Source: a virus. Taken from it: a DNA stretch of 25,062 nucleotides. The position numbers and the translations under genes are program-made. Numbering within the stretch: position 1 is the first letter of the stretch; each line of letters starts with the position of its first letter. The stretch lies in the IMG/VR virus record IMGVR_UViG_3300025326_000191, positions 1-25,062 of that record. One strand, written 5' to 3'. A model generated the notes under the pieces. The model did not search any database. It was not told where the DNA came from and saw only the letters and a list, made by a program, of their open reading frames with translations. Below, one piece after another: positions 3,827-18,012 of this stretch.

Positions 3827-4133
3827 GGGGTCCGTGCCGTGGCATCACGCGGGGAACCGCATCCTGGGCAACCCGTTCTCCTCGTTGGGCGAGTCGTGGT
3901 GCCCGCGGTGTAAGATGCCGGTGGAATGCGACACCGAGTCCTCGCACCGTGGGACGCAGTACGTGTGGTCGCGGCGTTGTCCGCGGTGCGGCGCCGTCGT
4001 GAGTTGGGGCGCCTACCAGAACGTGCCGATCCTCGGGGCCGCGGATGCGCGACGCCAGCGTGAGGCGGTGGCGTTCGTGACGCGACCCGGCGCGGACCGG
4101 CGCGGATCACGAAAGGGAAGAGCATGCCTCTGA
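3819..4133 (+). CDS. Zinc-ribbon protein (CPRC...CPRC)
   Basis: This encodes 104 aa, overlapping the previous gene by 8 bp. It contains two CPRC knuckles, C28-P-R-C31 and C54-P-R-C57, separated by 22 residues, with an extra Cys at 37. Around them are aromatic and charged residues (YVWSRRCPRCGAVVSW), the arrangement of a rubredoxin-like zinc ribbon. The C-terminal 30 residues are Arg-rich and may be disordered. The family is not recognised. It is one of several cysteine-motif proteins in this window and is followed by another one (4124), overlapping by 10 bp. Zinc binding is inferred from the cysteine pattern; the role could be nucleic acid or protein contact. Confidence 0.7.
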   Translation: MSEGSVPWHHAGNRILGNPFSSLGESWCPRCKMPVECDTESSHRGTQYVWSRRCPRCGAVVSWGAYQNVPILGAADARRQREAVAFVTRPGADRRGSRKGRACL

Positions 4134-6522: not shown

Positions 6523-8183
6523 TGGTGGCGCCGACGATCCTGACCGGCTCGAAGACGACGGCGGATCCTGACACGATCGCCCAGCTTCGGTGGCTCTGCC
6601 AGCACGATCTGTGGGTCCTGGCGTCCGTCATCCTCAATAGTGACAACCCGACGAGTCAGCTCTGCCCGCCGCTGCATCGCGAGCTCTGCACCTTCATACA
6701 CACCACGCCGTACCGCAAGAACCTCTATCTCATGTCTCGCGGGTATCTGAAAACCTCGTTCATCACGATCTGGGGCAATGTCCAACGCATCCTCCGCAAT
6801 CCAGAGATTCGCATTCTCATTGCCTCGAACAAGGCCGAGAATGCCCAGACCATGCTCGCGGAGATCAAGGTGGCGCTCCAGCACCCCCTACTGCTCTGGC
6901 TCTTCCCCGATGTGCTCTATCGAGACCCGGCTCGAGAGGCCGATCAGTGGACGACGTCCTCGATCATCGTGAAGCGGAAGCGCCGGCGTGGGATCGCGAC
7001 CGTGGAGACGATCGGCGCGTCGGGTGAGATCACGTCGCGCCACTACGATCATGCCGTCTTTGACGACCTGGTGGGCCGGGAAAACTACTCGACGCGCGAC
7101 CTGCGCGAGGCCACCAAGCTGTTCATTCGCCAGGCCCAACCGCTGCTTGACCCGACGACGACGACCCAGGACTACGTAGGGACGCCGTGGCACTACGACG
7201 ACGCCTACGCGGACCTCCTCGCTCGTCGGGCCAAGGGCGCGCCGCTCGGCGTCTTCATGCGGGCGTGCTGGCGACCCGATCCCGAGGGCGACGAGACGGC
7301 GGTGTTCGGCCGCGTCCGCTCCAACTATCCCGAGAAGTTCCCCGTCGCAGAACTCGTCGCCATTCGGGACGACATGGGGCCCAGCGAGTTCAGCGCCCAG
7401 TACTTGATCGACCCGATGAGCGCCGACACGGCCTACTTGCCGCGCGACAAGGCCATCATCGTGCCCCGCGCGGAGTGCCCGCCACTCGATACGCTCTGGA
7501 TCGTCATGACGGTGGACCCGGCCATCTCGCTCAAGGCGTGGGCGGACTACTCGGCCATCGCCACCGTGGGGTACGATGCCGACGGGTTCCGCTGGGTGCT
7601 CGATCTGCGCCGGGGCCGGTGGACGGAGAGCGAACTCGTGGCCCAGGTCTACGATGCCTGGGCCTGGACACGAGGCGTGCGAGCCATCGGCTTCGAGATG
7701 ATCGGGTTTGCCAAGATTTTCCGACGGATCTTCACGGCGGAGGGCCAGGCGCGTGGCCAGCAGCTTCCGATCATGGCCTTGGAACGCGATACGCGCGTGA
7801 CGAAGAACGTGCGGCTCCGCGCGCTCGAAGTCCCATGGCACAAGCAACAGTTCCGGTTCCTCGGTGATGCCCCGGCACTCCAAGAGTTGCTCCACGAGGC
7901 CGAGGTGTTCCGCCCTGACCGTGAAAACGCGCACGACGATCTGCTCGACGCGCTCGTGGACGCCGACCAGCTTCGGCTCAAGCCCGAGATCGCGGCGCCG
8001 GACTCGCCCTACGACGATCCTGAGCTGGCCGAGCGTGCCGACCGAGAGGAACAGGTGCAGGAGCGGCGTCGGCAGGGCGGTCATGAGGCGCTGGAGCACC
8101 TCGATCTCCAGATTGCGGTGGCGATGCAGCGCCGGCGCGAGGCGTGGGACGAGATGCGGGCCGAGGAGCACGAATTCGCGTGA
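6522..8183 (+). CDS. terL: Terminase large subunit (DNA-packaging ATPase/nuclease)
   Basis: This is a 553-aa protein that pumps DNA into the procapsid and cuts the concatemer. The N-terminal ATPase shows a Walker A-like loop S72-R-G-Y-L-K77-T-S, a Walker B V-F-D181-D182-L after the strand HAVF, and a coupling motif V219-G-T-P-W. The C-terminal RNase H-like nuclease shows T-V-D332-P, D342 and the terminal A-H-D472-D473-L-L-D476-A triad. The length is usual for TerL. The start is ATG 6522, sharing a base with the preceding stop (TGATG); GTG 6519 would add one residue. The last 60 residues are a charged helical tail. No small terminase subunit is recognisable next to it. Domain motifs are seen; the role is established for the family. 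Confidence 0.96.
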   Translation: MVAPTILTGSKTTADPDTIAQLRWLCQHDLWVLASVILNSDNPTSQLCPPLHRELCTFIHTTPYRKNLYLMSRGYLKTSFITIWGNVQRILRNPEIRILIASNKAENAQTMLAEIKVALQHPLLLWLFPDVLYRDPAREADQWTTSSIIVKRKRRRGIATVETIGASGEITSRHYDHAVFDDLVGRENYSTRDLREATKLFIRQAQPLLDPTTTTQDYVGTPWHYDDAYADLLARRAKGAPLGVFMRACWRPDPEGDETAVFGRVRSNYPEKFPVAELVAIRDDMGPSEFSAQYLIDPMSADTAYLPRDKAIIVPRAECPPLDTLWIVMTVDPAISLKAWADYSAIATVGYDADGFRWVLDLRRGRWTESELVAQVYDAWAWTRGVRAIGFEMIGFAKIFRRIFTAEGQARGQQLPIMALERDTRVTKNVRLRALEVPWHKQQFRFLGDAPALQELLHEAEVFRPDRENAHDDLLDALVDADQLRLKPEIAAPDSPYDDPELAERADREEQVQERRRQGGHEALEHLDLQIAVAMQRRREAWDEMRAEEHEFA

Positions 8184-9044: not shown

Positions 9045-9442
9045 TGCCGATCCGTGTCGGGTGCTGCACGGCCTGTGGGACCGAGACATGGCGCTCAGCC
9101 GAGGCCCAGCGTGAGGACAAAGACCAAGGGATTCATCTCGGCCAGCGGTTCCTGCTCTGGCCCGTGCCCTCGTCGGTCTACATCCAGACCTGGACGCCGA
9201 CGGGCCACACCGTAGGGATCGGGTACTGCGCGGCGTGCGTGCCCAGCTTTGGCACTCCTGGGCCTGTCGAGGTGGGCGAAGCGCGCGTCGTCGGCCACGA
9301 AGCGGCAACAAGCCGATACGGCGAGTGGTACACCGACGAGAAGGGCGAGTTCCTCCGTGCCTGGCTCGTCGATGCCCTGGGCTATGATGAGGCGGGAAGA
9401 GACCAGATCATGGCGGTGTGGGAGCAGGATCGAGTCGCCTGA
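9044..9442 (+). CDS. Zinc-binding-like hypothetical protein
   Basis: This encodes 132 aa; the ATG shares a base with the preceding stop (TGATG), and its own stop shares a base with the portal start. It carries two Cys pairs, C8-T-A-C11 (with C7) and C62-A-A-C65, separated by a strand-rich stretch, HLGQRFLLWPVPSSVYIQTW. This would make a split zinc site. The C-terminal 50 residues are charged and end in a helix (AGRDQIMAVWEQDRVA). It is immediately upstream of the portal and probably co-translated. The family is not recognised. Confidence 0.65.
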   Translation: MPIRVGCCTACGTETWRSAEAQREDKDQGIHLGQRFLLWPVPSSVYIQTWTPTGHTVGIGYCAACVPSFGTPGPVEVGEARVVGHEAATSRYGEWYTDEKGEFLRAWLVDALGYDEAGRDQIMAVWEQDRVA

Positions 9443-11676
9443 TGGCCATCACCGTCGCGCCCGCCGATCCGTACAAGGACCACGCCGCGATCCGGTCGCT
9501 GATGCGCCGGAAGCGCGACGAATGGCAGAAAGGCCGCGAGCCGTTCGTCCGAGCCGCGTACCGGAACCTGCTCTTCTACCGCGGGCTCCAGTGGATTCGG
9601 TGGGACCGGGCCATCAACCGCTTCCGGCCAGCGCGGCTCACCAAGGGGACGCCGACCCCGATGACGAATATCTTCAGCTCGACGCTCGACGCTGTGGCGT
9701 CGGTCTTCGCCCGGATCGAGCCTCGATTGCTCTTCGCGCCGGGCAGCGAAACGGACCCAGAGGACCGTGCGGCCGCCGATGTCGCCTCCCGTGTCATGGA
9801 GGTGATCGAGGATGAGGTGGAGGTGCGCTCGATGCGCCAGATCCTCGCCGCGTGGGTGGCGCTGACCGGCGGGGCCTGGCTGGAGACGGGCTACGACCCC
9901 GACCCGGAGCACGGGACGCGCCAACTCCTCGCCAGCGTGTGCCAAGCCCCGGGGTGCGGCCACGTCCAGGCGCCTGGCGCTCCGGCCTGTGAGGACTGCG
10001 GGGTTTCTGGCCCAGCGGATGTGATGCAGACCGTGCCGATCGGCCGCATGTACCTGGACGTGGTCTCGCTCTTCGAGATGTACTTCGACGCCGGCGTGAC
10101 GGACTGGACGAAGCAGCGCGGGTATCGCCGAGAAAAGTCGGTGTCGATCGACGAGGCGAAACGGCGCTGGCCCGCGCTTGCCGAGACGCTCCAGCCCAAC
10201 ACGGCCGGGAGCACGGCGGACGAGTGGTATGCCGAGGCCCTCCCGACGCTTCCGCCAGCGCTCGACGAGACGAGCTCGACCCGGTTCCTGGCCAGCGTCC
10301 GGCTCCGGGCCGACCGCGTCACGGAGGCGTGGCATTGGCAACGTCCCGATTCCACCTACCCGGACGGGCTGCTGGCGATCGAGGTTGGCCGCGATCAGCT
10401 CGCTCACGCCGGCCCGATTCCCTATGGCTCGCGCCGGGCCGACGGTTCACGGGCGCCCTTCCTGCCTCACGTCTGGTTCCCTCAGAAGTACGTGCCGGGC
10501 AGCGGCTATCCGAAGACGGTCGCCGACGATCTGGCCCACAAGCAGGCCCAGCGCAACCGCTGGGAGTCGATCATCGAGGCGTGCGGGATGCGGATGGGGT
10601 CGCCCACATGGCTGATCCCGGGCGGCTGCGGCGTCCAGGGCTTCACGGGCGAGCCGGGCGCCAAGATGTACTGGACACCGAACCCGATCGCGCCGAACGC
10701 GAAGCCAGAACGTCTCCAGGGCCTCGGCATCCCGCTTGCGTTCATCCAGATGATCGAGAAGATCGACAAGACCTTCGAGGAGCTCGCTGCGACGTTCGAC
10801 GTGATCAAAGGGGCCCGGCCGGCTGGTGTCTCGGCCGGCATCGCGCTCCAGATCCTCCAGGAACGCGGCCAAAGCCGCTTCGCGCCGCTGTTCATCACGT
10901 GGGAGAACGCCTGGGGGGCGTGGTCCCGGCAGGCCCTCGACATCTTCCGCGAGTTCGTGACCGAGGAGCGCCTCCGGCGCATCCAGGGGCGTGATGGCGG
11001 CTGGGAGGTCGAGAAGTTCCTCGGTGCCGATCTTCGCGGGCGGGTCGACGTGATGCCGGAGGCGGGGTCATCGACTCCGCGGTCAACGCTCGTGGAGCGG
11101 GCCGAGATCGAGCAGTTATTGACGCTCGGGGTCCTGTCGCCGGCTGAGCCCGAGGTGCGGCACAAGATTCTCGAGACCTACGGTAAACTCTACATGGTGC
11201 CGACCATGGCGGCGGACGTGAAGAACGCGATGCGGGAGAACGAAGCCTTCGAGGCGCTGGCGCAGGACCCGACGCTCTCCCAGGCGATCGGCGACGACAT
11301 CATGGCCCTGGAACAGATGCCCTACCCGCTGATCATCCAGCAGATGCGGCTGCGCGGCGTCACGATCCCGAAGGTCCGGGCCGCCGTCGACAACCACGGG
11401 CTCCACAGCCGGGAGCATGGGTCGTTCCTGAAGGCGGAGCGGTCGCAGCGGCTTCCCGAGATCGTCCAGGTCCTCGCCGAGCGGCACAAGGCGTACCACG
11501 ACGAACTCATGATCCAGCAGATGCAGTCCGTGGTAGGGCTGAATGCCCAGCCGAACCCGTCCGGTGGGTTCCTGGCCAAGCCAGCGACCTCGCCGATGCA
11601 AGGCGCCTCGTCGCCGATGGGGCTGGAGGGTCAAGGACAGGAGATGATGGGCGAGATGGCGCAGAGCGCGTCTTGA
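9442..11676 (+). CDS. Portal protein with internal zinc-ribbon-like insertion
   Basis: This 744-aa protein is the likely dodecameric head vertex through which DNA enters and leaves. The size is near that of the P22 portal (725 aa). The N-terminal wing shows typical portal features: RKRDEWQKGREPFVRAAYRN, then LQWIRWDRAINRFRP, NIFSSTLDAVASVFARIEPR and ILAAWVALTGGAWLETGYD. The middle part (ERLQGLGIPLAFIQMIEKID followed by AATFDVIKG) fits the stem and crown-proximal helices. The Gln/Met-rich C-terminus may form the crown or barrel. Residues 167-186 contain C167-x4-C172-x10-C183-x2-C186, a zinc-ribbon-like insertion in the wing. The start is ATG 9442 in a TGATG overlap. The TerL-portal-scaffold-coat order supports the call strongly. 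Confidence 0.9.
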   Translation: MAITVAPADPYKDHAAIRSLMRRKRDEWQKGREPFVRAAYRNLLFYRGLQWIRWDRAINRFRPARLTKGTPTPMTNIFSSTLDAVASVFARIEPRLLFAPGSETDPEDRAAADVASRVMEVIEDEVEVRSMRQILAAWVALTGGAWLETGYDPDPEHGTRQLLASVCQAPGCGHVQAPGAPACEDCGVSGPADVMQTVPIGRMYLDVVSLFEMYFDAGVTDWTKQRGYRREKSVSIDEAKRRWPALAETLQPNTAGSTADEWYAEALPTLPPALDETSSTRFLASVRLRADRVTEAWHWQRPDSTYPDGLLAIEVGRDQLAHAGPIPYGSRRADGSRAPFLPHVWFPQKYVPGSGYPKTVADDLAHKQAQRNRWESIIEACGMRMGSPTWLIPGGCGVQGFTGEPGAKMYWTPNPIAPNAKPERLQGLGIPLAFIQMIEKIDKTFEELAATFDVIKGARPAGVSAGIALQILQERGQSRFAPLFITWENAWGAWSRQALDIFREFVTEERLRRIQGRDGGWEVEKFLGADLRGRVDVMPEAGSSTPRSTLVERAEIEQLLTLGVLSPAEPEVRHKILETYGKLYMVPTMAADVKNAMRENEAFEALAQDPTLSQAIGDDIMALEQMPYPLIIQQMRLRGVTIPKVRAAVDNHGLHSREHGSFLKAERSQRLPEIVQVLAERHKAYHDELMIQQMQSVVGLNAQPNPSGGFLAKPATSPMQGASSPMGLEGQGQEMMGEMAQSAS

Positions 11677-11700
11677 CAAGTTCCGTGCCACGGGCATACC
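11673..11700 (+). promoter_or_regulatory. Possible promoter at portal stop
   Basis: TTGACA at 11673-11678, overlapping the portal stop codon, is a perfect -35 consensus. At a spacing of 16-18 bases there is only a weak -10 (CATACC or TACCGT). It lies at the start of the single long non-coding interval, just upstream of the scaffold and coat genes that need high expression. The support is modest because the -10 is poor and a chance match is possible. Confidence 0.25.
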
Positions 11701-11930
11701 GTGCGGGCGAATCGCGGAGGCGCCCGGCGTACAGGGCGCGGTAGTCGACAACTGAATCGGGGCGCGGGTTGATCCCCCGCCGTAAGCCTCTGGGCCTCGT
11801 CCCAGGGGGCCGACCACGGGACGCACGAGGGCGTCGGAAGGGTGATCCCTTACGGGGACGTGAAACCCTTCCGGCGCCTTCGTCGTTTCGGGCACTGCCG
11901 CACGATGAGGCGCGCGGCGAGGCGAAGTCC
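11677..11930 (+). ncRNA. Structured intergenic region, candidate leader or ncRNA
   Basis: This 254-bp interval between portal and scaffold has no convincing gene; the open frame from 11769 is Arg/Pro-rich and reads through the hairpins. It contains successive inverted repeats: CACGG/CCGTG (11689-11703), GCGCCC/GGGCGC with an 8-base loop (11720-11739), a GC-rich arm (11761-11781), CCTCTGGG/CCCAGGGG with one G-U (11787-11808), and a perfect 9-bp CGGAAGGGT/ACCCTTCCG (11835-11873) enclosing TCCC/GGGA. The arm at 11764-11780 (GCGGG, 7-base loop TTGATCC, CCCGC) resembles a tRNA T-arm, but I could not build a full tRNA. A structured 5' leader, a stable small RNA or a packaging-related RNA are all possible. 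Confidence 0.35.
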
Positions 11931-12722
11931 ATGCCAGACGATCTGGACGTCAGCACCGGCGAGTCGTTCCCGCTACCCGAGGTTCAAGGCGCTCCTGCAT
12001 CCACCACGGCCACGGCGACGCTACCGCCGCAGGATCAGGGCCCCGCCAAGGAACCCCCGTTCCACACCCATCCCCGATGGCAGCAAATGATGCAGCACAA
12101 CCGGGGTCTCACGGGTCAAGTCGGCCAACTCACCCAGGAACTCGAACGCCTCAAGCAGGCTCAGCAGCAGGCGCCGGCGGGCCGGATGACGCCCGAGCAG
12201 CAGTTCGAGTTGCAGCAGGCCGGCGCCGCGCTGGAGAACCTGATTCGCCAGCATCCCAAGCTGGCCTGGATTCTCGACGAGCGGGCACCCAAGATCCTCG
12301 ATTCTGGTGATCGGCTCGAATCGCTCTCGAAGGCGCAGTTCAACGCGCTGACCCGTCAAGGGCGCAATACGCTCGGTGATCTGTTCAAGGCGGACAACCT
12401 GCCACCCGAGACGCATACCGAACTCGAAGACCTCATTGCCGCGAAGCTGAAGATGAACCCGGAGCGGCTCCAGCGGTACATGGCGGGCGACATCGACGTG
12501 GTCCGCGAGGTCTATACGGAACTCAAGCCGTTTGTCGAGGCGCTTCGGCGGACGGCCACCACGACCACCCTCGAAGCCAAAGGTCGCGTCAGCAGACTTC
12601 CGCCTCGCCCCGTCGGCGGCGGCCCCGGTCAACCGGCCTTGCCCAAGCTCCAACCTGGCAAGGAACGGGAGTACCTGGGCAGTGTCGCGAAGATGGCGCG
12701 GAACCTGTTGAGCAGCGGCTAG
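11931..12722 (+). CDS. Capsid scaffolding protein
   Basis: This 263-aa protein lies between portal and coat, where scaffolds usually sit (P22 scaffold is 303 aa). It is highly charged and Gln-rich. An acidic, disordered N-terminus is followed by a long helix (QVGQLTQELERLKQAQQQAP), further helices (EQQFELQQAGAALENLIRQH) and a basic C-terminal end (LQPGKEREYLGSVAKMARNL) of the type that binds coat. Scaffolds direct procapsid assembly and then leave. The start is ATG 11931, with purine-rich GCGAGGCGAAG upstream; an extension to 11769 would add 54 Arg/Pro-rich residues encoded by the structured interval. The identification rests on composition, coiled-coil character and position. Confidence 0.8.
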   Translation: MPDDLDVSTGESFPLPEVQGAPASTTATATLPPQDQGPAKEPPFHTHPRWQQMMQHNRGLTGQVGQLTQELERLKQAQQQAPAGRMTPEQQFELQQAGAALENLIRQHPKLAWILDERAPKILDSGDRLESLSKAQFNALTRQGRNTLGDLFKADNLPPETHTELEDLIAAKLKMNPERLQRYMAGDIDVVREVYTELKPFVEALRRTATTTTLEAKGRVSRLPPRPVGGGPGQPALPKLQPGKEREYLGSVAKMARNLLSSG

Positions 12723-12732
12723 GGAGACGCTC

Positions 12733-14031
12733 ATGGCTGGACAGGACACAGTATCCTTCGACGAAGTCCTCAGAACCGTGTGGGGCCCCGCGATCCTCGA
12801 ACTGGTGCCCCAGAAGATCAAGCTGTTGGAGTTGTTCGAGGAGCGTGACGCCAACGACTGGGGCGGGCGCGAGGTGCAGCAAACCATTCACATCGGGCGC
12901 AACCGCGGGGTCGGCGCCTACTCCGAGATGGGAGCGGTGCCGGCGGCGGGTCAGCAGGAGTACGCCACGGCGCGCATCCCGATGAGGTACATCGGAGGGC
13001 GCATCCAGCTCAGCGCCCAGGTCATGAAGGCGTCCCAGGGTCCGCGTCACGCCGCCGCGTCTGCGATGGAGGAGGAGACGACGCGACTCATCAAGGATCT
13101 TCGCGCCGAGTTGAACCGGATGTTGAACGGCGACGGACGCGGCGTGCTCGCCTTCGTCAACGGCGATCCGAGCACCGGGACGACCATCACGGTCGATTCG
13201 CCTCACGGGGTCGCGGGCGCCACCAACGGCAACCGCTTCATCTCGGTCAACGACCGCGTCACGTTCGTCAACCCAGCCACCGGGGCGATCCGCGCGTCGG
13301 CTGATCATCTCGTGTCGGCCTACGCCGCGGGCGGGACGACCTACACGGCGAGTGCGGCGGCCGCCGCTGCCGTGGAGGACAACGACTACATCGTGCGGGC
13401 CAACAAGGCAACTCTGACCGACGTGTCGGATACGAGCTACGCCAAGGAGACCATGGGCCTTCGGGGCCATGTGGACGATGGGACCTATGTCTCCACATAC
13501 TTCGGGCTGAACCGGACGACCTTTCCGAAGCTCCAGGCGTCGGTGATCGCCGTCAACGGGGCGGTGAGCGGCGAGGTGATCCAGAAGGGCCTCGACATGA
13601 CCGACCAGCGCGGTGATGGCGAGGTCAGCGATTTCGTCTTGCACCACTCAGTCCGGCGGGCCTACCTGGCCGTCACCGAGGATGCGCGCCGGTATCAGGG
13701 CGGCGATCTGTCGAATCCTGACGCCGGGACGCGCGCGGCGAAGCGCCAGGCCGTCACGTTCGGTGGCATCCCGTTCATGGAGGAGAAGTACTGCGACTAC
13801 GGCGTCATCTACGGCATCGACCGCTCCAACTTTATCCAGTTTGTCGAGGAACCCGGCAAGTGGTTCGACGATGACGGATCCATCCTCCAACGGCTCGGTT
13901 CCGGGACCACGTTCCAGCATGGCGTGGAGGGCTTCTACTACATCTGGAAGAACTTTTTCTGCAAGGCGCCCAACCAGAGCGTCCGATTCGACGGCATCTC
14001 GGCCAGCGTCGCCGTGGTCCACGTGGACTAG
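12733..14031 (+). CDS. Major capsid protein
   Basis: This encodes 432 aa, close to the length of the P22 coat (430 aa), with a good ribosome-binding site (AGGGAGA) 7 bases before the ATG. The sequence shows HK97-fold-like order. The N-terminal arm contains VPQKIKLLELFEE. It is followed by an E-loop-like stretch, IHIGRNRGVGAYSEMGAVP, and the helix MEEETTRLIKDLRAELNRML that would be the spine helix. An Ala/Thr-rich inserted domain comes next (about residues 150-220), and the C-terminal region has FVLHHSVRRAYLAVTEDARR and TFGGIPFMEEKYCDYGVIYG. The last motif, a target-site strand followed by 'G-x-P', is typical of coat proteins. It directly follows the scaffold. No protease gene is adjacent, so coat processing is not indicated. 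Confidence 0.88.
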   Translation: MAGQDTVSFDEVLRTVWGPAILELVPQKIKLLELFEERDANDWGGREVQQTIHIGRNRGVGAYSEMGAVPAAGQQEYATARIPMRYIGGRIQLSAQVMKASQGPRHAAASAMEEETTRLIKDLRAELNRMLNGDGRGVLAFVNGDPSTGTTITVDSPHGVAGATNGNRFISVNDRVTFVNPATGAIRASADHLVSAYAAGGTTYTASAAAAAAVEDNDYIVRANKATLTDVSDTSYAKETMGLRGHVDDGTYVSTYFGLNRTTFPKLQASVIAVNGAVSGEVIQKGLDMTDQRGDGEVSDFVLHHSVRRAYLAVTEDARRYQGGDLSNPDAGTRAAKRQAVTFGGIPFMEEKYCDYGVIYGIDRSNFIQFVEEPGKWFDDDGSILQRLGSGTTFQHGVEGFYYIWKNFFCKAPNQSVRFDGISASVAVVHVD

Positions 14032-14041
14032 GAGGCGCCTC

Positions 14042-14488
14042 ATGGCAGACGATCGAGACCTCACGCCGATTCTGCTCATCGACCGGGCGGGTCTCGGCGG
14101 GTTCGAGTTCCAGTACGACGGGCGGCCCTTCGAGTTCAAGCGCGGCCAGATCACGAAAACGACCTACGCCGATGTGGCGCGGTTCCTCTTCGTAGGCCGC
14201 AAACTCATGGTCTGGACCACCGAGGGTGAGTTCGTCTTTCGGCTTGCGCTTCGGGATGCTCCCGGATTCGAGGGCGTGTCCCAGCATCTGGCCAACGAAC
14301 TCGGTCCCGACGTGGTCGACACGGGTGAACGGATCGAGATCGATACGAGGCGCGTTGAGGGCTGGGACCTCGACGGTGTCGATCGATCACACTCGCAAGT
14401 CCTTCGGCTCAACGTGCCGCGTAACGAACTTCGAGAAAACCAGGGGCGCGAGCCGGGCTCTCGGATCGTCGCCGCGGAACGGGGGTAG
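14042..14488 (+). CDS. Hypothetical head-associated protein
   Basis: This encodes 148 aa; ATG 14042 is preceded by GGAGGCGCCTC. The protein begins with a predicted beta domain (PILLIDRAGLGGFEFQYDGR, PFEFKRGQITKTTYADVARF) and continues with strands and an acidic C-terminal half, ending Arg/Glu-rich. No cysteines or catalytic motif are visible. Its position right behind the coat gene is where phages often encode head decoration or completion proteins. That is inference from position; the family is not recognised. Confidence 0.65.
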   Translation: MADDRDLTPILLIDRAGLGGFEFQYDGRPFEFKRGQITKTTYADVARFLFVGRKLMVWTTEGEFVFRLALRDAPGFEGVSQHLANELGPDVVDTGERIEIDTRRVEGWDLDGVDRSHSQVLRLNVPRNELRENQGREPGSRIVAAERG

Positions 14489-14491
14489 ACC

Positions 14492-16593: not shown

Positions 16594-17471
16594 GAAACGG
16601 CGCGGCGTACACCCCGATCGACCAAAGCTACCCGTACAAGCTCCGGGGTACGAACCAGGGCACGGACACGGGTCTCCTCTGGCGCCCGCCGACCTACAAG
16701 GCGTTCGCCGGCGGAGGCGTGCCGTCCACATCAACGCTCTACTTCCCGGGCTGCGCGCTCGGCAAGTGGGCGCTCCACAATCGCGCCGCGGCAACGATCG
16801 TTGCCGGCATCGGAGTTCGGCTACCGAACGGGCTATGGAAGGCCGGCCAGTGGGTCAACGCCACGACGACCTATACGGACGACACGACCGATGCCCAGGA
16901 CGCCGGGACCGACGACTTCGTTCTCGAGACGACGACGAACAACGACGGCTTCTGCGTCTTCTCACGCGTCCCGTTCAACGCCATCTCAATCAACGTCTCG
17001 ACGGCATCGGTGGACGCGACGAATCCGGCCCGTGCGGTGCGCTTCTCGGACGGGGCAGGCGCCTGGGCCACGGCGCTCACCAACCTGTTCATCCAGGACG
17101 GCCTGGCGGACGAGTACGCCCTGGGTGAGAACCTGATCGTCTGGGCGCCGCCCGTCACGTGGGGCCGGACAACTGGCGCCGAAGGGACCGGTGTGCCCAT
17201 CGGCTACTACGGGGTCAACGTGCGCGCCACCACGGCCCCCGACACGACCGCGGCGCTGGCCACCGCGCTGGAAATCTGCCGCCTCTACGAGGTGACCGAG
17301 GGGCTTGCAGATAACTCGATCCTCTCGGACGACTTCATCGGTGGCGATCTCGTCATGGCGCGTGACGACCTCGCGGGCGGCACTTTCGAGGTCTACGGCG
17401 ACGCCCTCGTGGCGCTGTTCGGCACGGCGAACAACATGAACCGCGTCACCGCGATGGTGCGGGCGGCGTGA
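16590..17471 (+). CDS. Hypothetical virion-like protein (293 aa)
   Basis: The start ATG lies in an ATGA overlap. The 293-aa product is Thr/Ala/Asp-rich, with an N-terminal extended region (YTPIDQSYPYKLRGTNQG), a strand-rich middle containing Asp/Thr-rich loops (TTYTDDTTDAQDAGTDDFVL), and a C-terminal alpha-beta part with LEICRLYEVTEGLADNSI. Only four cysteines are present and no metal cluster. The composition resembles phage structural proteins such as minor head or fibre-linked proteins. It sits between the YkgJ-like gene block and the neck genes. I do not recognise the family. Confidence 0.6.
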   Translation: MRNGAAYTPIDQSYPYKLRGTNQGTDTGLLWRPPTYKAFAGGGVPSTSTLYFPGCALGKWALHNRAAATIVAGIGVRLPNGLWKAGQWVNATTTYTDDTTDAQDAGTDDFVLETTTNNDGFCVFSRVPFNAISINVSTASVDATNPARAVRFSDGAGAWATALTNLFIQDGLADEYALGENLIVWAPPVTWGRTTGAEGTGVPIGYYGVNVRATTAPDTTAALATALEICRLYEVTEGLADNSILSDDFIGGDLVMARDDLAGGTFEVYGDALVALFGTANNMNRVTAMVRAA

Positions 17472-17481
17472 GGGTTGGCCC

Positions 17482-18012
17482 ATGCTTGCCGATCCCACGC
17501 CGCCCGCGGCACTGACGGAGGCGCTGCGCCGCTACGACGCCGACTTGCGCGTCCGCTGGGGCCGGCATCGCGCCATCTGGCTCATCGAGCGCAAGCTGCC
17601 GCCCCGCCATCGCACACTCCTGGGCGAACGGCCCTCGCCCTGGAAGTCCGCCCGCGGGCGTGATCTGTATGAGGGCTGGCGTGAGGGCTACGTCCACATC
17701 CTGAGCGTCCATCCCGACTTGATTCAGAACACGCCACGGATCCTCGATGAACTCGCGAGCGCTGATCTTTGGCGCCAAGGCGGGATCGAGGCGATCAACC
17801 GGCGACTCGACGAGGTGGCGGAGCAGGAACAGCGCGATGTCAACCAGATGATCCAGGACCGGGCGCATGTGGTGGCCTACGACAGCGTGGACCGGCTTGC
17901 GTGGCTGGAGGGTCGGCGCGTCGCGGTGACGCCCCCGGCCGAGCGGACACCGTCCGTCGAAGTCTGTGACGGCTTCGTGATCCGGGACCGTCGCCAGGTG
18001 GCGCGTGTCTGA
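17482..18012 (+). CDS. Helical hypothetical protein upstream of the adaptor
   Basis: This encodes 176 aa; ATG 17482 follows the previous stop by 10 bp and no strong ribosome-binding site is visible. The N-terminal half has LRRYDADLRVRWGRHRAIWL followed by IERKLPPRHR, a Trp/Arg motif I associate with uncharacterised phage proteins encoded near head-tail joining genes. The centre (EAINRRLDEVAEQEQRDVNQ) is a long charged helix and the tail is short and strand-like. It overlaps the next gene by 8 bp. A head-completion or neck role is plausible from its position immediately upstream of the adaptor. No catalytic signature is visible. Confidence 0.6.
   Translation: MLADPTPPAALTEALRRYDADLRVRWGRHRAIWLIERKLPPRHRTLLGERPSPWKSARGRDLYEGWREGYVHILSVHPDLIQNTPRILDELASADLWRQGGIEAINRRLDEVAEQEQRDVNQMIQDRAHVVAYDSVDRLAWLEGRRVAVTPPAERTPSVEVCDGFVIRDRRQVARV

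Follow-up and report, generated by a model that had tools for sequence, protein, structure and literature searches.

Between the portal and scaffold genes of an uncultivated phage lies a structured RNA, at positions 11761-11893 of the window, by which we mean the whole IMG/VR virus record that was analysed (25,062 bases). It is built from three stems, namely P1, which is followed by CGUAA, P2, with the loop CCUCGU, and a long P3, and it has so far no name and few known members. Both its existence and its fold are well supported, with four clear members. With moderate confidence, we read it as a conserved element of the late mRNA that works in cis at the portal/scaffold boundary in a handful of uncultivated phages of podovirus-like type. 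Production of the phage head is probably under its control, which is likely to be exerted in cis on the part of the message that encodes scaffold and coat. Tailed phages need hundreds of copies of the coat and scaffold proteins and few portals, all from neighbouring genes. That an RNA is conserved at this boundary in phages whose scaffolds are just 25-32% identical to that of the window points to a solution at the level of RNA, one that a reporter assay could test even with no phage in culture.

The portal stop codon and the scaffold ATG are separated by 254 bases, and the features in and around this interval are listed in Table 1. The one other apparent gap that was examined, at 14032-14491, is coding, being similar to the gene 3' of the coat gene in two relatives. 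An earlier note on this DNA had described the interval as hairpin-rich and as lying upstream of the scaffold and coat genes, and the folded RNA found there bears this out. Among the consecutive stems that the note had seen, P1, P2, and P3 are confirmed, P0 is recognised by eye, and a weaker P4 is predicted; what it had likened to a T-arm, a 5+7+5 hairpin, is P1, a real stem. A P0-like hairpin can be seen by eye at the same place in one relative (L108), and none was recognised in two others (L032 and L029). P4, predicted by RNAalifold from the alignment A8, is weaker than P1-P3 and partly broken in the window. The members show no common arrangement by which the RNA would sequester the ribosome-binding site.

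Table 1. Features of the portal-scaffold-coat region (window coordinates).
Feature	Positions	Strand	Basis and remarks
Portal protein gene (P22-like)	9418..11676	+	Pfam PF16510 (P22_portal) and PHROG 156; stop at 11676
Promoter-like site	11673..11700	+	TTGACA, 16-nt spacer, CATACC; 6 + 3 of 12 matches; 2% of shuffles as good
P0 hairpin, GCGCCC-8-GGGCGC	11720..11739	+	By eye; 5' of the conserved core
Conserved GGY	11761..11763	+	In all 5 members; could pair with GCC 11786-11788
P1 hairpin, GCGGG-7-CCCGC	11764..11780	+	5 bp, loop 7; two-sided changes in 4/5 pairs (four members, and also by hand with L105)
Conserved CGUAA + GCC	11781..11788	+	GCC could pair upstream (GGY) or downstream (P2 extension)
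P2 hairpin, loop CCUCGU	11790..11805	+	Two-sided changes in 5/5 pairs (five members, by hand) and 4/5 (four members)
P3 long hairpin	11817..11890	+	7 outer + 18 inner pairs, one bulged C, 23-nt loop; two-sided changes in 6/21 counted pairs
Linker, 37 nt	11894..11930	+	Weak predicted P4 hairpin and possible ribosome-binding site GAGG
Scaffold gene	11931..12722	+	Position and alignment with relatives; without family match
Major head (coat) protein gene	12733..14031	+	PHROG 14242

The 254-nt interval folds with -134 kcal/mol (z -2.66), a value equalled by 1 of 200 shuffles, and among 196 other windows of 254 nt a lower energy is seen in one, at 11685, which overlaps with the interval, and a lower z in one, at 17273. 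For the 160 nt upstream of the scaffold ATG, z falls to -4.43, and the leader z lies between -4.0 and -5.5 in the four clear members and at -1.08 in the more diverged L105. The outlying stretch at 17273-17526 contains a long GC-rich hairpin that spans the junction of two ORFs (z -4.17; 0 of 200 shuffles as good); the first ORF stops at 17471, the ATG of the second, at 17482, lies inside the hairpin loop, and the hairpin might exert translational control over the second ORF.

Relatives were gathered by searches with the coat and portal proteins, which yielded phage contigs with coats 24-55% identical to that of the window; L001, with a coat identical to the window's, has an identical RNA too. 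The four clear and distinct members are the window (the same RNA as L001), L032 (L002 is the same contig), L029 (L006 is the same contig, and L003-L005 are alike), and L108, and in the phages that bear the RNA it stands at the same place. A fifth relative, L105, has a diverged form in which P1-CGUAA-P2 is kept, the long P3 is missing, and the fit to the model is weak. It should be mentioned that coat similarity alone had brought in L108 and L105, both of which then turned out to have the RNA where it was expected.

R1, a covariance model whose training set was L032 and L029 alone, was run on 55 sources, made up of the window plus 54 loci out of 111. It matched the window with 52.7 bits (E 1.8e-7) and L108 with 36.7 bits (E 1.8e-4), and its best score outside the member loci was 20.8 bits (E 0.18, in L011); reverse-strand echoes of P3 reached 32.5 bits in L029 and 29.7 bits in L032. 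On L105, at the right place, R1 gave 13.3 bits (E 4.7), and a model of all four members (R2), with filters off, put its best match within that locus at this same place, with 19.4 bits (E 0.0057) and several P3 pairs broken. In a search of the complete records from which 22 loci derive, R2 scored strongly in the four training records or their copies, by construction, with reverse-strand echoes of P3 at the same positions there, and its best E in the other whole records was 0.033, the RNA of L105 not being reported in this search (E up to 1).

Compensatory changes in related phages, which the earlier note had proposed to look for, are indeed found. In the alignment A12, which consists of four sequences and was fitted to the structure with an inclusion E of 5e-5 (L108 enters at 1.8e-5; at 1e-5, there are three matches and L108 is left out), 124 of 124 cells pair and 14 of the 31 pairs have two-sided changes (Table 1 gives them by stem), a result that none of 500 shuffles reach, and structures slid along the same alignment pair just 43.9-52.3% of the cells. 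A check that is blind to the structure, RNAalifold on the plain MAFFT alignment A8, also recovers P1, P2, and P3. For the count with helices placed by hand, which includes L105, the shuffle test of two-sided changes is weak when taken helix by helix (P1 7%, P2 4%, outer P3 13%, and inner P3 0.6%), and that of paired cells gives 0 of 5000 for P1 and P2, 13% for outer P3, and 0.2% for inner P3. In this count, some positions given for the three-letter helices P1a and P2ext belong to an identical triplet that occurs earlier, and L105, where GUC stands in place of the GCC triplet, did not enter the count of the downstream pairing. G-U pairs make up 17 of the 124 cells of the four-member alignment and, since a G-U pair would be a mismatch on the other strand or in a DNA dyad, the element acts as RNA of the coding (+) strand.

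How widely the RNA is distributed was judged from 16 distinct scaffold leaders that were folded, P22 apart (a set that excludes MW202554 and MW507126 as well as loci stopping short of the leader, and in which some scaffold starts were guessed from ORFs). It is present in 5 of the 16 and was not found in the other 11 (L097, L104, L012, L014, L015, L016, L018, L019, L020, L021, and L022). Because L097, L104, and L012 are of similar divergence and lack the element, the RNA seems to be dispensable within the group. The closest named phage by coat, MW202554 (43.6%), gave no R2 match. Two of the leaders without the RNA have other structures at the same place. In L012, at about 3930-4043, a long hairpin (longest stack 17) is followed by UUUUU and is terminator-like; P1 and P2 were not found there, and the leader z is -4.15. 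In L097, the short portal-scaffold leader (6951-7032) holds two hairpins, both with GCGAA in the loop (by eye), and this pair is possibly a different control element.

Scans with DNA patterns of the motif picked out 10, 57, and 12 stretches, which a stem test resolved into three known types without any further member; the stretches outside these types have no P2 stem above 4 and served as negative controls. A descriptor of P1 and CGUAA, which was written after the members had been seen and is therefore not independent, recovers the five members and one chance sequence (in L035 and L037) from 2.1 million bases, with both strands and overlapping loci counted. Searches farther afield brought no new member: a search with the terminase as single protein gave no pattern match, a coat search in genome contigs with two peptide patterns confirmed no relative, and BLAST with the RNA, or with the sequence around it, returned no hits or short, weak ones from phages and plasmids. 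A coat-alignment search of 396 and 395 genomes from two phyla found one remote coat in each set, and the two loci concerned (2,299 and 3,744 bases, which may stop short of the leader) have no RNA match above 8.3 bits.

The distance to the scaffold gene is nearly constant. Measured from the modelled end of the RNA (in the four clear members, 3 nt beyond the last P3 pair), the distance to the scaffold ATG is 37, 37, 39, and 37 nt in these members and 42 nt in L105; in other words, P3 lies about 40 nt upstream of the scaffold start in the four clear members. In L105, the preceding ORF ends 24 nt upstream of the RNA. A structured leader, which was among the possibilities raised in the earlier note, is thus supported by the compensatory changes, the fixed position, and the near-constant spacing.

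In letters, the window and L108 are 77% identical over the RNA, 46% over the scaffold gene, and 57% over the coat gene, and their scaffold proteins share 31% of residues; the RNA of the window is 65% identical to that of L032 and 68% to that of L029, with 50% for the scaffold. Pairs that do not involve the window show no such advantage of the RNA over its neighbours: between L108 and L032, it is 48% identical in a plain alignment, the same as with a shuffled partner, so that the kinship of these two rests on motif, pairing, and place. The coat of L108 (322 residues seen) is 69% identical to that of L097, whereas the scaffolds are 27% identical and the RNA was not found in L097. On sequence comparison, this contrast suggests that the scaffold gene, perhaps together with the RNA, has been exchanged between phages. 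Given these values for coats and scaffolds, the RNA may be exchanged along with the portal/scaffold boundary, and it does not track a single partner protein.

As to function, we propose that the RNA would separate the expression of scaffold and coat from that of the portal, or would raise it relative to the portal. A substrate of RNase III is a duplex of about two helical turns or more. The P3 duplex has 25 counted pairs in the window, 24 in L108, 21 in L032, and 22 in L029 and is shorter in L105; with 21-25 pairs, about two helical turns, it is of sufficient length in the window, L108, L032, and L029, and it may act as a processing site of the RNase III type or as a stability block. P1-CGUAA-P2 could be the recognition module for a host factor, which would read the RNA, perhaps for RNA processing, stability, or termination. 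For the window and L108, the scaffold diverges faster than the RNA, which speaks for a partner encoded by the host rather than for the scaffold protein. A further speculation, to which we give a rather low probability, is that P1-CGUAA-P2-P3 would be a portable regulator that recognises a conserved host factor (RNA polymerase, an RNase, or the ribosome), comes and goes as a module between portal and scaffold, and resets the expression of the head proteins.

Somewhat unlikely is a reading of P3 as a present or former intrinsic terminator between portal and scaffold that would be controlled by the stems 5' of it; loop 2 (CCUCGU), for instance, might pair with ACGAGG in the 5' arm of P3. RNA-driven antitermination of the HK022 type would be a precedent for such an attenuator, L032 is U-rich at the 3' arm of P3 (UUUUGUUU), and the hairpin of L012 with its UUUUU occupies the same place. 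On the other hand, there is no U-run after P3 in the window or in L108, so the arrangement of an intrinsic terminator, a GC-rich hairpin with a U-run directly behind it, is not found in the window; terminator scans of the window, L032, and L029 did not report P3 either, the 23-nt loop of the window being outside the limits of the scan. In each of the four clear members, loop 2 and the 5' arm of P3 could form six base pairs, one of which is changed on both sides in L029, but this complementarity is at chance level (10-64% of shuffles are as good in the four members, and 25% in a pair shuffle). We rejected a loop 2 switch, with the P3 arm or the linker as partner, on the same ground: the pairing is present, but chance gives as much.

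The exact TTGACA that the earlier note had marked as a consensus -35 box does exist (11673-11678, overlapping the portal stop codon), but this hexamer occurs in the window at chance frequency (5 found against 5.2 expected), and its best -10 partner has 3 of 6 matches. Scans of the five members gave promoter-like sites upstream of the RNA in the window, in L032 (1% of shuffles as good), and in L029 (5%), and none in L108 or L105. Between the site and the RNA, there is a small ORF in L032 (9822-10031, 69 codons) and in L029 (10465-10662, 65 codons); the two are 80% identical to each other and have no Pfam or PHROG match. A free-standing small RNA, with its own promoter, acting in trans and ending at the P3 hairpin, would agree with the promoter-like sites in three members, with the compact fold, and with the higher conservation of the RNA than of scaffold and coat between the window and L108. 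We nevertheless consider it unlikely, in view of the two members without such a site, the ORFs of 65-69 codons that intervene in L032 and L029, the RNA abutting the scaffold gene at near-constant spacing, and the missing U-run after P3 in the window and L108, where nothing marks the end of an RNA. The stable phage RNA of the earlier note, taken as a separate transcript, would have a promoter-like site in only three of the five members.

In P22, the scaffold protein, the product of gene 8, is reported to regulate its own synthesis. By analogy, the RNA might be an operator at which free scaffold protein represses its own translation, which would suit both the place directly upstream of the scaffold gene and the P22-like portal. 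This is quite unlikely, for the RNAs of the window and L108 are 77% identical while the scaffold proteins that would have to bind them are 31% identical, and L097 and L104 have scaffolds 31-34% identical to that of the window and no RNA; P22 itself, where the scaffold starts 13 nt past the portal, has no R2 match in its first 12,000 bases.

Very improbable, in our judgement, is that the stems are chance hairpins of GC-rich DNA (leader GC 0.71) or part of a coding sequence in the frame that runs open from 11769; conservation of this frame was among the findings that, according to the earlier note, would speak against an RNA. In three of five members (the window, L108, and L032), the scaffold frame runs through the RNA without a stop, but it contains stops in L029 and L105, its translation in L032 shows no similarity by eye, and it reads alike (by eye) only between the window and L108, where the RNA is 77% identical anyway; the protein is thus not conserved. 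Not all differences between the RNA lengths (133, 115, 107, 110, and 92) are divisible by three, and neither the covariation of the stems nor the leader z of the four clear members agrees with chance. A packaging-related RNA, another suggestion of the earlier note, finds no support: no Rfam family (pRNA included) matches at threshold, and the terminase of the window is of the large-subunit type (PHROG 38).

We return, then, to a cis-acting element of the late mRNA and to its likeness to known systems. GOLLD, ROOL, and phage pRNA, which are present in Rfam, resemble it in being structured RNAs borne by phages, but it differs from them in that the Rfam search, one of the checks that had been proposed for this interval, gave no family at threshold and no match at all in the whole window; the best sub-threshold scores in Rfam 15 were 28.3 bits against 95, 18.8 against 46, and 18.9 against 40, and the lowest E was 0.088 (sbcD in L108). 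ARAGORN found no tRNA or tmRNA gene in the window. Candidate phage-linked RNAs are the subject of PMC8040213, and the words "capsid" and "portal" are absent from its text. The literature search, from whose scope most subscription papers fell out, found no description of the RNA at 11761-11893.

With the portal-scaffold-coat cassette of P22, the locus has the gene order and the portal family in common, but portal and scaffold are just 13 nt apart there, and the first 12,000 bases give no R2 match. The put RNA of HK022 is likewise a set of compact stem-loops in a nascent phage transcript that works without need of a phage protein; put precedes early genes, whereas the element described here stands before structural genes, and the HK022 record (L114) has no R2 match at E up to 5. 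The RNase III sites of the T7 late mRNAs are similar in that a long duplex lies in an untranslated gap before a strongly expressed gene; here, cleavage is only predicted, and two extra stems and the conserved unpaired CGUAA and CCUCGU are located 5' of the duplex.
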